Assembly (NCBI GenBank): GCA_004367505.1
Contig: SFCB01000130.1
Span: forward strand, 1 to 40,020
From: Chloroflexi bacterium OHK40
GTDB lineage: Bacteria; Chloroflexota; Chloroflexia; Chloroflexales; Chloroflexaceae
Length of the DNA stretch: 40,020 bases
Reading direction: 5' to 3'
The translations under genes and the position numbers were made by a program. Of the stretch, positions 1 through 37,768 are shown piece after piece (the first letter of the stretch is position 1; the number at the start of each line of letters is the position of its first letter). Below the pieces are notes generated by a model, which worked only from the letters and a program-made list of their open reading frames with translations, did not search any database and had not been told where the DNA came from.

Positions 1-306
1 GGGGCCAATCACACCCCACGGGGGCCAATCACACCCCACGGGGGCCAATCACACCCCACGGGGGCCACCCACACCCCGGGGGCCAATCACGCCCCACGGG
101 AACCACCCACACCCCGGGGCCAATCACACCCCACGGGGGCCAATCACACCCCACGGGGGCCAATCACACCCCACGGGGGCCACCCACACCCCGGGGCCAA
201 TCACACCCCACGGGGGCCAATCACACCCCGGGGGCCAATCACACCCCGGGGGCCACCCACACCCCGAGGGCCAATCACACCCCGGGGGCCAATCACACCC
301 CGGGGG
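1..306. repeat. GC-rich minisatellite, 16 imperfect tandem units of 17-20 bp
   Basis: Units start at about 1, 21, 41, 61, 79, 99, 116, 136, 156, 176, 193, 213, 231, 249, 267 and 285. Two unit types alternate: GGGGCCAATCACACCCCACG (20 bp; an 18-bp form lacks one CA) and GGGGCCACCCACACCCCG (17-18 bp). The order is quasi-periodic: three AAT-type units, one ACC-type, one AAT-type, one ACC-type, three AAT-type, one ACC-type, and so on. This suggests a higher-order duplication. There are no unique spacers, so it is not a CRISPR array. The array touches the window edge and may be longer. It ends about 50 bp before the start of the decarboxylase gene, so it occupies that gene's upstream region. Confidence 0.95.
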
Positions 307-355
307 CGTCTCTGCGGTATCATAACAGCAAGCACTGCTAGCGAGGAGCACCCCG

Positions 356-3622: not shown

Positions 3623-3725
3623 CCTTCGATCGCGAACGGGTGAGCCATCCGTGGATGGCTGAAGCGCGTCCGAGTGCCATCCGCGCGACGCTCCAGTTCC
3701 TGGTGTTCGGTTCTTTGCGCTCGCG
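3623..3725 (-). repeat. Dispersed ~100-bp element, copy A
   Basis: Read on the minus strand this matches, with scattered substitutions, the segments at 4811-4909 and 15565-15672 (minus strand) and 22969-23055 (plus strand). Shared landmarks in order (minus strand) are a GCAAAGAACC-like start, an ACCAGGAA block, GGAGCGTCGCGCGGATGGC, a TCGGACGCGCTTCAGCC block, ATCCACGGATGGCTCACC and TTCGCGATCG. It lies in the 382-bp gap upstream of panB in the same orientation as the gene, and in-frame stop-free extension of panB runs through it. Confidence 0.7.
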
Positions 3726-3734
3726 TCGCTCATG

Positions 3735-3826
3735 TGCCTCAGGCGTGCAGCCGACCCCTGGCGAGCCGCCCCGCAGGCCGCCAGCGGGGCCGGATCAAGC
3801 TGGCGCGGGCCGGCTTCGCCGAGCGC
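3735..3826 (-). repeat. Second dispersed repeat family, copy 1
   Basis: On the minus strand this reads AGCGCTCGGCGAAGCCGG, then CCCGCGCCAGCTTG, TCCGGCCCC, GGCGGCCTGCGGGGCGG and on to a GCACGCC...GGCAC end. The same series occurs at 32009-32102 on the plus strand. The first 65 bp are colinear with about nine mismatches by eye; the rest is more diverged. It occupies the rest of the panB upstream gap (3567-3948), where I see no gene. Confidence 0.65.
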
Positions 3827-3948
3827 TCGCCCGCAGCGTGAGCCGCCAGGGGTGTGGGAGGCCCACGCACCGCCGTGCTGCCGCCGTGGGCTGGGCGCAC
3901 AACCTGCCGGGTTCCAGGCATCTCCGCGCTGATGGTACCACCGTTGCG

Positions 3949-4810: not shown

Positions 4811-4909
4811 CAACGCATATCGCGAAAAGGTCGAGCCGTCTGCGGAGAACATGAGCGCGTCAGCACAACATCCACGTGCCGTTCTCTGGTTACTGGTTTT
4901 TGCTCGCAT
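4811..4909 (-). repeat. Dispersed ~100-bp element, copy C
   Basis: Minus-strand landmarks shared with copies A and B: GCGAGCAAAAACCAGTAACC, a GGCACGTGGATG block, CTGACGCGCTCATG, TCCGCAGACGGCTCGACC and TTTTCGCGATATGCGTTG. It fills the gap between the DUF1326 gene and the CcdA-like gene. Its first bases form the last codons and the stop (TAA at 4890-4892) of the DUF1326 gene, so the element supplies the C-terminal residues of that protein. Confidence 0.7.
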
Positions 4910-5507
4910 GCTCAAGCCGGAAGTGGCCCTGGATGGCGTTGCGGCCCTTGAGATCGATCTGCCAGCCCAACTCGGGCACGCTCGCGGTATAGTGCTCAGC
5001 CTTCGCCACATAGGCCGGCGAGCCGGGGATGGTCGAAAAGATCGAGTTGTTCAGGGTGGTGACGCTGCCGTCGGGGCCGGTGTAGGGCGCCATCGCCACG
5101 TCCACCACGTCGTCAACCCGCAGCACCCCCCGGCCACCCTCTACAGTGAAGGTGATCCGGGCGCGCTTGACAGCGACAACCTCACCCACAAGGCGGGCGC
5201 CGTCGGCAAGGGGGCCGCCGAGATCGCCGCGAAAAGCCCGCAGGATCGCCGCGAACTGCTCATCGCTGGCCCGATCGTCGATATAGCGCACCACGCGGTA
5301 GCCACCGTGCAGCACGTTGCCAGGAATGTGGGCCGCCACGGCGAAGGTCAGGCCGGAAACGTCCACCCCCTCGATCACGCCCCGGTCGATGCGGTAGGCC
5401 AGGGCCGAGTCACAGCTGCCGTTGTCCGGATCCTCGCCGATCCAGCACGGGCAGAGCACCCCACAATCGCAGACCTCGAGCAGGCGGCCTTCGAGCGAGT
5501 AGGCCAT
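4890..5507 (-). CDS. DUF1326 domain protein, Cys-rich N-terminus
   Basis: 205 residues. It matches the DUF1326 family, whose function is unknown. The N-terminus carries a dense cysteine motif C-D-C-G-V-L-C-P-C-W at residues 13-22, followed by GEDPDNG. The middle holds a domain starting GVDVSGL that ends near SIFSTIPGSP. The ATG at 5507 has a GGGGGA ribosome site and starts immediately before the conserved AYSLEG. The last four residues (SKNQ) are encoded by the start of a dispersed repeat and may not be ancestral. The next gene on this strand is a CcdA-like thiol-redox membrane protein, which suggests a shared redox role for the four cysteines; that is inference. Confidence 0.85.
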   Translation of the reverse strand: MAYSLEGRLLEVCDCGVLCPCWIGEDPDNGSCDSALAYRIDRGVIEGVDVSGLTFAVAAHIPGNVLHGGYRVVRYIDDRASDEQFAAILRAFRGDLGGPLADGARLVGEVVAVKRARITFTVEGGRGVLRVDDVVDVAMAPYTGPDGSVTTLNNSIFSTIPGSPAYVAKAEHYTASVPELGWQIDLKGRNAIQGHFRLEHASKNQ

Positions 5508-14095: not shown

Positions 14096-14851
14096 CTACG
14101 AGTGCCCGCGCGCGGCCATCAACACCCGGTAGACGGTGAGAAAAAGAACGCTCCCACCGCTCGACCAGTACAGCACCTGGGCCGGCCTGGTTACACTGTC
14201 GCTGCCACTCATCACCCCGTGAGCCAGGGCCAGCGCGAAGACCACAAAGCTGAGCAGATGCACGAGGCGCCAGAGCCGCTGTCCCAGGTGGCTCCGCACA
14301 TAGAAGCTGAGACCAACCAGCACTAGCCCGTAGAGGGCCACCTGCCCGAGGCCCACCCACAGCGGCGCATAGCCGCTGTAGGCAAAGGGTACGAGGATCT
14401 GAGCAAGTGTCGCGGCGACGAAGCGGTCGCCGAGCAGGATGAGCGCGTGAAACAGGGAGAATGCGAGCCCCAACAGGCTGGTGTGCTGATGTAATGCAAA
14501 CGCCGTGGGCCCACCCGGCCAGACACGGGCAAGCCGGTTGCTCATCAGCAGGCCAGAGAGCATCGCAAGCCAGAGCAGCGCATAGGCAACCATGGCGCTG
14601 CTACGCGCCAGCAGCCAGTAGGCCGACGGTTCGGCACCCAGGAGCGAGGCGGTGAGCCCGGGTAGCAGGGCAGGAAGCGCTGCGGCGGCCAGCAGTGCGC
14701 CGCCTGCCGCACCCAACAGGAGCACCGCCAGAGCCTGGGGCGCCAGGACGGGTGGCTGAGGGTCAACTGGCGCTGAGGACACAGCCTTGGGCGCTCTGGC
14801 CGTGTTCGCGGCCCGGATGGCTGCGAGGCGGGCAGCACGTTCATCGCTCAT
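14096..14851 (-). CDS. Ferric reductase-like (YedZ/MsrQ-type) heme membrane protein
   Basis: 251 residues. After a polar N-terminus (1-35) there are about six membrane helices. Histidine pairs typical of heme-b binding lie in two of them: ALHQH...SLFHALILLG and RLVHLLSFVVFALALAHG, the spacing expected of ferric-reductase-like transmembrane domains. It lacks the cytoplasmic FAD/NAD domains of full ferric reductases, so it needs an electron donor. Its ATG overlaps the apbE stop (ATGA), so it is translationally coupled and is the last gene of the four-gene operon. Likely role: passing electrons across the membrane to a flavin or metal acceptor. Confidence 0.8.
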   Translation of the reverse strand: MSDERAARLAAIRAANTARAPKAVSSAPVDPQPPVLAPQALAVLLLGAAGGALLAAAALPALLPGLTASLLGAEPSAYWLLARSSAMVAYALLWLAMLSGLLMSNRLARVWPGGPTAFALHQHTSLLGLAFSLFHALILLGDRFVAATLAQILVPFAYSGYAPLWVGLGQVALYGLVLVGLSFYVRSHLGQRLWRLVHLLSFVVFALALAHGVMSGSDSVTRPAQVLYWSSGGSVLFLTVYRVLMAARGHS

Positions 14852-15987
14852 GGCAAGACTCCTGCGTTTGCCGGCTCACGCCAGCGATAGGGCGCCAGGG
14901 TTGCGGTTCGGATGACACGGCCGGCAGCGGTAACGAGCAAGCCCGCAAGCTGTGGCCTGGCGGCAAGCCAGTGCAGGCCGCCATCCCGGCCCAGGAGCAT
15001 TACAACCTTCGCGGCCATCTCCGCCTCCTGGACATCTGGCCCCACGATGGTCGCCGCGAGGAGATCGGTGGTTGCTGGTTGGCCTGTCCGGGGGTCGATC
15101 AGGTGGTGCTGCTCGACGCCTCCGTGATGCCAGCGTCGCAGATCGCGACCCGAAGTTGCGACCCCGCCAGCACTCAGCAGCAGGAGGTCGAGCTCGGCCC
15201 CCGGATGAAGGGGGTCTGCCACTCCCACCGGCCACGGACTACCATCTGCGCGCGGGCCGGTTACGGCGATGTCGCCGCCGGCATCGACGAGCGCCGGCCC
15301 ATAGGCGGCGAGCTTCCGAGCGGCCCGATCGGCGGCCCAACCCTTGGCGCTGCCACCAAGGTCCAGGCCGGCCCCCGCTGGCAAGGCAATCCGCCGGCGG
15401 CCAGGATCCAGCCGGATCGCTCGCCAGTCGCGCACAGTGTCCGCTGACCGGCGCGCCGGGACTGAGTTATCCACGCCGTGACACCATGTTGCTCGTTCGG
15501 AGCCTCGTCGACGCCGCACGCTGCGTGCCCGCGCAGGCGGCCGAACGCTGGTTGCAGTTCCATTGAGCGCATCGCTCGAAAGGGTTGCGCCGTCTGCGGA
15601 TGGCTGGAGCGTATCAGAACGCCCTCCGCGCGCGGCGCTCCCACGCCTGGGTTCTGGCTCTCGATCGAGCACGGCAAAATCCCAGTCATAGCCGGCACGC
15701 TCCAGGGCAGCAAGCACCGTTGGTGTGACGAGGCCATCGCTTGCGCGCGCCGCCTCCAGGGCTGTCTCCAGCGCCGCCCACAGCGTCGGGCTGACGGTTA
15801 TCCATCCGGAGCGTGCGCGGTGATTGATCCGCGACAGCTCACTGTCGGGGCGGAAGCGACTCAAGCATTGCTCCCAGGTGGCGAACCAGCCGGGCACTTC
15901 AGCGAGGATGGCGCGTACGGCAGGCCCGGCGCTATCGACCACAGCGAGCATTTGACAGCCCATCGCCCGAAATGCGATCCTCTCCAT
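14848..15987 (-). CDS. apbE: ApbE-type FAD:protein FMN transferase with an in-frame repeat insertion
   Basis: 379 residues, larger than usual. ApbE covalently attaches FMN to a Thr/Ser of extracytoplasmic proteins. Family landmarks: FRAMGCQM near the start, FRPDSELSRINHRA, AGYDWDF (about 105), LDLGGSAKGWAADRA, VDAGGDIAVTG, a GGVATSGRD...HHLIDPRTG block and the C-terminal VVGPDVQEAEMAAK-like region. Between FAVLDREPEP and DWRAIRL, where relatives have a short linker, there are roughly 80 residues rich in Arg, Ser and Asp. About half of these (15565-15672) are encoded by a dispersed DNA element found elsewhere in the window. The frame is kept, so the protein may still work. It starts 10 bp after the small membrane protein gene and overlaps the next gene by 4 bp. 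Confidence 0.85.
   Translation of the reverse strand: MERIAFRAMGCQMLAVVDSAGPAVRAILAEVPGWFATWEQCLSRFRPDSELSRINHRARSGWITVSPTLWAALETALEAARASDGLVTPTVLAALERAGYDWDFAVLDREPEPRRGSAARGGRSDTLQPSADGATLSSDALNGTATSVRPPARARSVRRRRGSERATWCHGVDNSVPARRSADTVRDWRAIRLDPGRRRIALPAGAGLDLGGSAKGWAADRAARKLAAYGPALVDAGGDIAVTGPRADGSPWPVGVADPLHPGAELDLLLLSAGGVATSGRDLRRWHHGGVEQHHLIDPRTGQPATTDLLAATIVGPDVQEAEMAAKVVMLLGRDGGLHWLAARPQLAGLLVTAAGRVIRTATLAPYRWREPANAGVLP
15565..15672 (-). repeat. Dispersed ~100-bp element, copy B, inside apbE
   Basis: Minus-strand landmarks: CTCGATCGAGAGCC, AGAACCCAGGCGTGGGAGC, GCCGCGCGCGGAGGGCG, TTCTGATACGCTCCAGCC, ATCCGCAGACGGCGCAACC and TTTCGAGCGATGCGC. The block from CCAGG to the ATCCGCAG landmark lines up almost base for base with copy D at 22985-23040. 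It encodes the S-D-T-L-Q-P-S-A-D-G segment of ApbE. Copy A reads S-D-A-L-Q-P-S-T-D-G and copy C A-D-A-L-M-F-S-A-D-G in the corresponding frame. Confidence 0.75.
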
Positions 15988-21899: not shown

Positions 21900-22968
<1,069 letters not shown>

Positions 22969-23055
22969 CGCGAGCACCGCGCGCCAGGAAGCGGAACGCC
23001 GCACGTGGCTGGCGTTCTCACGCGCGCCAACCATCCGCAGCCGGCTGGGGCATAG
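22969..23055 (+). repeat. Dispersed ~90-bp element, copy D
   Basis: Plus-strand landmarks: GCGCGAGCACC, GCGCGCCAGGAAGCGGAACG, CCGCACGTGGCTGGCG, TTCTCACGCGCGCC and AACCATCCGCAGCCGGCTG. The CCAGG-to-ATCCGCAG block matches copy B inside apbE closely. It starts directly after the reductase stop codon and has the same orientation as the genes, as do the other copies. Confidence 0.65.
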
Positions 23056-31385: not shown

Positions 31386-32009
31386 GTGTTACGCCAAGAA
31401 ACCGCCCCGCTCACGCCCGCCTCCTATGCGCCGTATCGGGCCTGGTTGCTCGGGCTACTCACCTGGGGGCTGCTCGTCACCCTGCTCGCCCGTAGCGGTC
31501 TGCTCGCCGCCCTGCCTACGCAGCTGCTGCCGCTGCCGATCGCCCTCGCCATCAGCGGGCTGCTGGCGGCCTACGCCTTCCTGCCGGGCACGCGACATTT
31601 GGCCCAGCAGCTCGATATGCGCTGGCTGACCCTCTTCAATGTCTGGCGTGTTCCGGCTGCGTTGCTCTTTTTCTGGTACGGCGCCCAGGGTCTGCTGCCG
31701 GCAACCTTCGTGCACAACGCTGGCTGGGGCGACCTGATCGCTGGCCTTGCCGCCATCCCGGTGGTGTTCTGGCTGATGCCACGGCCCCGATGGCGGCGCC
31801 CGAGCCTGCTGGCCTTTCACCTCTTCAGCTTCGCCGACTTTGTCGTCGCCGTGGGCACCGGTTTCAGCTTCAGCCTGCTCGGTAACCCGCTGATGGGCGA
31901 GCTCAAGAGCTTCCCTCTCGCGCTCATCCCGCTCTTCGGTGTGCCACTCACCGGTGCGTTGAGCGTGATCGCCCTGCACCGCCTCGCTACCGGCCGCGAT
32001 GGGAGCTAG
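31386..32009 (+). CDS. Uncharacterised six-helix membrane protein (paralogue of 33673-34209)
   Basis: 207 residues with about six membrane segments. I do not recognise the family. Its second half resembles the protein at 33673-34209: both have an Arg followed by a hydrophobic helix, then a G-x-L-P-A-x-F segment, G-D-L-x-x-G-L-A, an L-F-S...D-F-V block and a C-terminal L/F-I-P-x-F-x-V-P. The GTG start has AAAGGAG upstream. It lies 162 bp after the tetR gene, behind a second operator-like palindrome, and before the MFS gene. Confidence 0.8.
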   Translation: MLRQETAPLTPASYAPYRAWLLGLLTWGLLVTLLARSGLLAALPTQLLPLPIALAISGLLAAYAFLPGTRHLAQQLDMRWLTLFNVWRVPAALLFFWYGAQGLLPATFVHNAGWGDLIAGLAAIPVVFWLMPRPRWRRPSLLAFHLFSFADFVVAVGTGFSFSLLGNPLMGELKSFPLALIPLFGVPLTGALSVIALHRLATGRDGS

Positions 32010-32102
32010 CGCCCGGCGAAGCCGGCCCGCGCTGGCTTGCTCCGGCCCCTCCGGCGGCCTGTGGGGCGGCACGCCGGAAGCCGTGCGACCCCGGCGTGGG
32101 CA
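32009..32102 (+). repeat. Second dispersed repeat family, copy 2
   Basis: Begins AGCGCCCGGCGAAGCCGG and continues CCCGCGCTGGCTTG, CTCCGGCCCC, GGCGGCCTGTGGGGCGG. It matches 3735-3826 on the opposite strand. It starts at the stop codon of the membrane protein gene (TAG at 32007-32009 falls at its edge). Confidence 0.65.
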
Positions 32103-32165
32103 CGCGATGCCGCCGGAAGGGTGGCGTCTCCGCGCTGTCCCAGCCGCCCCTGGAAAGGGTTGTTG

Positions 32166-37622: not shown

Positions 37623-37638
37623 AGCGCATCGCCAGTCG

Positions 37639-37730
37639 CTTCCCTACGCTGGTATGACCCAGGTCAGGTTCGGAGGGTCAGCGGCATCGATCGGGCCGCA
37701 CTCTCAGCCAGACTCGTCTGGCTCCCCTAG
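37639..37730 (-). ncRNA. TPP riboswitch (THI element)
   Basis: Minus strand: GGGGAGCC opening, an imperfect hairpin arm, CTGAGAGT, then CCGAACCTGACCTGGGTCAT and ACCAGCGTAGGGAAG. These are the conserved pyrimidine- and pyrophosphate-binding cores of the thiamine pyrophosphate aptamer. It lies directly upstream of thiE-thiM-thiL-thiD and is followed by a terminator, so TPP should stop transcription of the operon. Confidence 0.95.
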
Positions 37731-37768
37731 CAGTGCCACAGAGTATGTGGCGCTTATGTGTTTGCTGA

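Follow-up and report, generated by a model that had tools for sequence, protein, structure and literature searches.

Two apparently dead mobile repeats seem to have been absorbed in frame by apbE, a flavin-transfer enzyme gene

Results

The window, by which we mean the whole 40,020-nt stretch of DNA analysed, contains an apbE gene whose reading frame runs through copies of two dispersed repeats, here called A and C. Further copies of A and copies of a third repeat, B, lie elsewhere in it (Table 1).

Table 1. Positions, strands and evidence for features of the window
Feature	Position	Strand	Evidence or remark
Repeat array at the contig edge, 17-20 bp spacing (GGGGCCAATCACACCCCACGG and variants)	1-325		
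Element A copy between called genes	3624..3723 (profile match 3634-3720)	+	profile and own-genome model search
Element B copy adjoining an A copy	3710..3859	+	
Element A copy	4811..4904	+	profile match; 3' end of a called minus-strand gene (4890-5507) inside the copy
apbE (ApbE family), 379 aa, with A and C insert	14848..15987	-	Pfam ApbE PF02424, E 9.5e-53
Element C copy, palindrome ATGGAACCAC...GTGGTTCCAT	15461..15569 (core about 15477-15566)	+	profile, E 4.7e-23
Element A copy in apbE (gene on the minus strand)	15564..15669	+	nhmmer E 1.2e-22; own-genome model search, 82.1 bits; translation
Element A copy	22964..23053 (profile match 23047-22964)	-	right tip CTAG contains the stop of an aldo/keto reductase gene
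Element B copy	32001..32132	-	
TPP riboswitch	37624-37738	-	69.3 bits

Between F104 and W188 the linker of this ApbE has 83 residues, as compared with 17-32 in an alignment of 32 relatives (drawn up without the distant L094; L075 and L092, whose linkers are the same, probably represent a single organism), in line with the short linker that the initial annotation had ascribed to such proteins. The excess consists of one copy of A (about residues 107-141, LDREPEPRRGSAARGGRSDTLQPSADGATLSSDAL) and an adjoining copy of C (about residues 142-171); when both are taken away, about 18 residues are left, which is a normal linker. The proposal of a dispersed element that lies in frame in apbE and is missing from the proteins of the 32 relatives therefore stands, as does the estimate that this element supplies roughly half of the insert. 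A single origin of the insert does not, since the adjoining C copy accounts for most of the remaining excess.

Outside the linker, 82 of the 85 positions that are near-invariant in relatives (counted with L063 left out) are kept, and the enzyme core looks intact as far as conservation can indicate. An AlphaFold2 model built on a four-sequence alignment (mean pLDDT 64.4, pTM 0.64; confidence outside the loop moderate) leaves residues 109-185 at a pLDDT below 50, as expected for a disordered loop, which is what the insert is predicted to form. The codon pattern of the gene is flattened although its protein is conserved: GC3 is 0.69 against 0.845 ± 0.038, and GC2 0.61 against 0.49 (means of called genes over 600 nt). 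Because GC3 is low, relaxed selection on apbE is possible.

The four segments of the window that had been put forward as similar are one repeat, all being matched by a common profile at E 1.2e-22 to 4.6e-16. They had also been placed on the same strand sense, which is wrong for the copy given as 22969-23055: it lies on the opposite strand and makes an inverted pair, the other three forming a direct family. The first profile, from which four poor copies were left out, was followed by a sequence-only model (R1) of 34 copies, since RNAalifold gave no pairs. Searching 41 stretches (0.835 Mb, partly chosen near element matches) with a profile yielded 58 places below E 1e-3. In the organism's own genome (6.93 Mb, 301 contigs) the model found at least 152 matches at E≤0.1, reaching down to 5.7e-28; the 150 matches listed are all at E≤4.2e-6. 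This count is a lower bound, 150 of 4187 first-look candidates having been scored, and some neighbouring matches may be pieces of a single copy. Counts of copies given below are based on 156 distinct copies collected at E≤1e-4.

Beyond this genome, a strictly filtered search of 157 other genomes of the class, with 24 candidates scored in each, gave no match to A at E≤1e-5. Among 40 other genomes of the family, seven contained weak matches, ten in all (E 0.001-0.008, 18-21 bits), which exceeds a nominal expectation of about 0.4, model E-values being rough; we take them as chance, although distant relics are possible. One near-consensus copy had no match in plasmid and phage collections. The 65 near-full copies have a mean identity of 0.806 to the consensus and of 0.736 to each other (maximum 0.884), and by this divergence A is judged to be an old family with no recent copies.

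The consensus of A reads CTAG, 98 nt, CTAG, that is, about 98 bp between CTAG-like tips. At copies away from stop codons, the right end reads inwards C60% T57% A59% G83% and then (C/A)GCA, and the left end C55% (G40%/T34%) A60% G73% and then (C/A)GCA. Both ends thus read about CTAG-MGCA for some 8 bp only, the left more loosely as C(G/T)AG, with G more frequent than T at its second base (0.40 vs 0.34), which counts against the reading favoured below; the consensus as a whole is a longer imperfect palindrome. Among tips away from stops, 18 of 86 on the right and 8 of 85 on the left carry YTAR at the tip position, compared with 0-3 at other positions. Agreement between the left and right 4-mers amounts to 135 bases, as compared with 125.2 ± 5.2 in shuffles (86 of 2000 reaching as high a value), and target duplication by A is weakly supported. 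The commonest net insertion, seen in 32 of the 65 near-full copies, is 102 bp with one CTAG counted, or 34 codons, and A at a CTAG inside a gene therefore keeps the frame; the net length is divisible by three in 37 of the 65. A CTAG in a gene can occur in two phases and two orientations, and three of these four cases are open in the consensus.

A stop codon of a called gene falls exactly on the right tip of A in 32 of the 132 copies with that end (22 TAG, 7 TAA and 3 TGA), against a mean of 0.13 and a maximum of 2 when positions were shifted by 11-120 nt in 500 trials. The left tip coincides with a stop in 9 of 118 copies, an imbalance between the tips that a symmetric target does not predict, and about a quarter of all copies (41/156) carry a stop exactly at one tip or the other. 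The aldo/keto reductase gene of the window, on the plus strand, is one such case, its TAG ending at 22968. Truncation of genes by A was rejected as the general reason for this overlap: the flank beyond the element at stop-linked copies is non-coding (-3.3 vs +9.9 for gene tails, n=32), and ten of the 20 genes scanned, from the 32 that are stop-linked, end no more than 3 positions from the end of their best family profile. These ten are BchG (282/283), RuvB (327/330), a DrrA-type protein (301/302), LigA (663/664), a sodium symporter (547/547), methylmalonyl-CoA mutase (526/528), Cas4g/Cas1g (544/546), ChrA (368/368), Alx (302/303) and RpoD (631/631), and several stop-linked genes continue beyond the profile end (LigA by 35 residues, RuvB by 19). 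Three others stop 7-13 positions short (AKR 262/275, L227 447/457, MreD 147/154), three (L135, L235, L122) fall short of the best-profile end, and four are uninformative (L139, L225 and L184 without a match, L192 with a repeat match only). Truncation is possible in individual genes.

The 458 CTAG sites of the sample divide into 248 in gene interiors, 129 between genes (element tips included) and 81 at stops. By our own arithmetic, the density of CTAG per kb between genes is some 3.5 times that within them. With interior insertions lost, 39% of the remaining CTAG would be at stops, as compared with the 26% seen. The availability of CTAG can explain the stop-codon pattern, and target choice is the best explanation of the exact placement.

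Inside genes, A was recognised in at least 3 of the 156 copies, in apbE, in P0003 (a large protein without a Pfam match) and in the tail of P0002 (a PGA_cap protein), the latter two being the only copies wholly in called genes. All three are in frame. The count is a minimum with the simple gene finder used, which misses apbE, and the apbE copy is accordingly among the 146 of 156 that overlap called genes by less than 20%. Relatives of P0003 occur in 20 of the 40 other family genomes. Its A-bearing stretch has 96 residues as compared with 58-80 in the seven relatives with clean cover (L258 lacks cover of this part, and some residues of L261 are masked), and an insertion of A is supported by this comparison; the stretch varies among relatives, the nearest being only 16 residues shorter. 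A second stretch of P0003 (L140, residues 524-562) is longer than in several relatives and matches none of A, B and C. Some open frame runs across 71 of the 156 A copies, with coding signal on both sides of the spanning frame only in L140, L151 and L122, the last of these frames running antisense to a called gene.

Repeat C is a second dispersed palindromic family, with 27 copies in the first sample and 34 later. Its core adjoins A in apbE, and the segment 15483-15566 recurs at 14 other places in the organism's own genome (BLAST, E≤0.01). C adjoins A in 16 of 34 copies, in several orientations, a proportion inflated by most loci having been fetched around A copies; in a fairer sample of 40 long stretches plus the window, themselves partly chosen near matches, it does so in 6 of 18. 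Repeat B is a third dispersed family of 23 copies (also at L170, L171 and L172), four of them near A copies. No similarity was recognised among the three families. Because stops also fall at a single fixed position of the tip in B (3 of 23 copies) and in C (5 of 34), a target common to A, B and C is suggested.

Discussion

Miniature inverted-repeat transposable elements (MITEs) are in general about 70-300 bp long, multi-copy and without a transposase gene, with terminal inverted repeats and a target site duplication, and their ends are generally common to an autonomous insertion sequence. At about 98 bp plus tips and at least 152 matches, A falls within this description in size and copy number, and on the comparisons made here it appears to be a MITE-like family specific to its lineage, with no recognised counterpart in the libraries searched. 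It also looks extinct, given the 81% mean identity of its copies to the consensus, the decay of its hairpin and the lack of any recognised transposase with ends like its own.

We therefore favour, with good confidence, a reading of A as an old, apparently inactive MITE-like family with CTAG/YTAR targets, whose insertions were purged from gene interiors and tolerated at stops and in linkers. Under this reading, A would be a non-autonomous element moved in trans by a DDE transposase, either IS630-like and duplicating TA or IS5-like and duplicating YTAR, that would have pasted it into CTAG/YTAR sites. Insertions inside genes would mostly have been purged, those at a stop (C-TAG) would have left the protein complete, and a few in linkers would have been tolerated. 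In apbE, C and A, which meet at their tips in the linker beyond residue 106, would add a translated loop of about 65 residues.

Such targets have precedents. IS630-family elements insert at TA, which is duplicated (PMC2170065), and a preference of IS630 for the TA in CTAG is named in a title cited in the same paper; IS5 duplicates YTAR (PMC10359306), and MITEPsy1 is described as targeting CTAG or YTAA and duplicating 4 nt (PMC3189936). The CTAG-like tips of A would fit a TA duplication of the kind made by IS630/Tc1-mariner MITEs, with TA inside C-TA-G, but no empty site was seen.

As to a source of the transposase, A-like ends were not recognised near the matches to four Pfam families (Y1_Tnp, DDE_5, DDE_Tnp_1 and DDE_3) in the organism's own genome, in a comparison that relied only on exact inverted repeats of 9-11 bp and on profile matches, some loci being cut by contig ends. 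DDE_5, which we take to be the mark of IS701, has one copy in the genome, with ends other than those of A. DDE_Tnp_1 has eight matches, one of which is this IS701-type copy and two of which (L265, L268) are cut by contig ends, and DDE_3 has one. The IS701-type element (L263, about 1345-2918) has TTAG on both flanks and ends TACTACAACGAGGG. In L266, about 1.3 kb separate a DDE_Tnp_1 gene from a full A copy (119-223), and this proximity may be chance or may reflect a link to a parent element.

A wider proposal, which we put forward only tentatively and consider doubtful, is that CTAG specificity provides a safe harbour in a high-GC genome, with A, B and C, whose tips are alike in this respect, possibly having been served by one lost transposase. 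If this were true, the rarity of CTAG in genes and its frequency at TAG stops would mean that A lands repeatedly and exactly on stops and spares proteins, the net length of 102 bp and the mostly open frames would make some in-gene insertions survivable, and A, B and C may insert at each other's tips.

The alternatives to a purged, DDE-mobilised MITE-like family fare less well. It is unlikely that A is an IS200/IS605-type (PATE/REP) element, inserted 3' of a tetranucleotide on one strand with CTAG as a one-sided target. The internal palindrome and the stronger CTAG and stop linkage of the right tip would suit such an element, but left tips are also CTAG-like and also carry stops, and Y1_Tnp had no match in the genome, in a search whose controls matched in 5 of 14. 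The RAYT-linked REP/BIME units are palindromes of 20-40 bp that carry a GTAG or CGTC tag and are often accompanied by an IS200/IS605-type transposase (PMC3733652), and A, at about 100 bp, with CTAG-like tips and no Y1_Tnp found in its genome, lacks these features.

Quite improbable, in our estimation, is an element akin to the Rickettsia palindromic elements, the success of which would depend on translation inside genes and which would be selected for compatible frames. In keeping with such an element, the commonest net length is divisible by three, of the four gene-compatible consensus frames only one is closed, and apbE and P0002 read A in the same frame, P0003 using another open one; yet this length and openness are jointly not very improbable (about 0.05 by our own estimate), and so few copies were recognised in genes when more than half of CTAG sites lie in gene interiors. 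The Rickettsia elements, compared here by description only, are palindromes of about 150 bp translated in frame in conserved genes (PMC10969869, PMC2229807), as A is, relative to the proteins of other genomes, in apbE and P0003; nearly half of the 44 elements reported in these sources are in genes, in contrast to A. The comparison drawn by the initial annotation accordingly holds for the effect, an in-frame, open and loop-like insertion. As an account of the whole family it does not hold: of the 156 A copies, 3 alone were recognised within genes, 146 overlap called genes by less than 20%, and 41 have a stop exactly at a tip.

A functional RNA, or a terminator or REP-like hairpin kept at gene 3' ends, would agree with the exact position at stop codons, the right-tip bias and the imperfect hairpin formed by the consensus (-48.4 kcal/mol, z -2.4), but we regard it as very improbable. 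Individual copies gain almost nothing over shuffled sequences (mean z -0.32, n=40), with z at -0.09 for stop-linked copies (n=19) and -0.24 for others (n=51), RNAalifold gave no conserved pair on a 34-copy alignment, and A had no Rfam match in the window, nor at E≤1 in six A loci; moreover, exact overlap with a stop is not needed for a terminator. The sequences thus give no sign of selection on RNA structure. Finally, an ordinary expansion of a fast-evolving linker, with chance or composition behind its likeness to other segments, would fit the variable linker length among relatives (17-32) but is refuted by the model E-values down to 5.7e-28 and by an essentially empty control, the 0.835 Mb read backwards giving a single match at E 0.99.

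Among known systems, MITEPsy1 of Pseudomonas syringae, again compared by description only, is near A in size at 100 nt; unlike A, it has 18-nt terminal repeats, a suggested source in ISPsy2 and copies more than 97% identical in related strains, and a stop-codon pattern is not described in the parts of that paper drawn on here (PMC3189936). RUP of Streptococcus pneumoniae, associated with IS630-Spn1, resembles A in its 107 bp, its 108 intergenic copies and its TA-containing targets, and it lands in other mobile elements, much as A and C lie tip to tip (PMC2229807). Its copies are conserved, all six of its frames contain stops, and it has a probable parent (PMC2229807), whereas A is diverged, has three open frames and is without a recognised parent. 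The RU-1 units of enterobacteria are MITE-like and, like A, fused in frame, also at gene 3' ends (PMC2759123); in ECA3499 the unit removed the normal stop and lengthened the protein (PMC2759123), whereas the tips of A contain the stop itself.

In-frame MITEs are thus already known, from Rickettsia, Neisseria and enterobacteria (PMC2229807, PMC10969869, PMC2759123), and the exact placement on stop codons is the less familiar part of our findings; neither this repeat family nor the stop-codon pattern was found in a literature search of open-licence PMC papers.

In conclusion, two mobile repeats, apparently dead, seem to have been absorbed in frame by apbE, providing a Chloroflexota case of mobile repeats turned protein sequence, in an enzyme that is assayable with and without its insert. 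More generally, target choice alone can place about a quarter of a repeat family exactly on stop codons, and such placement might be misread as the mark of a regulatory 3' element.
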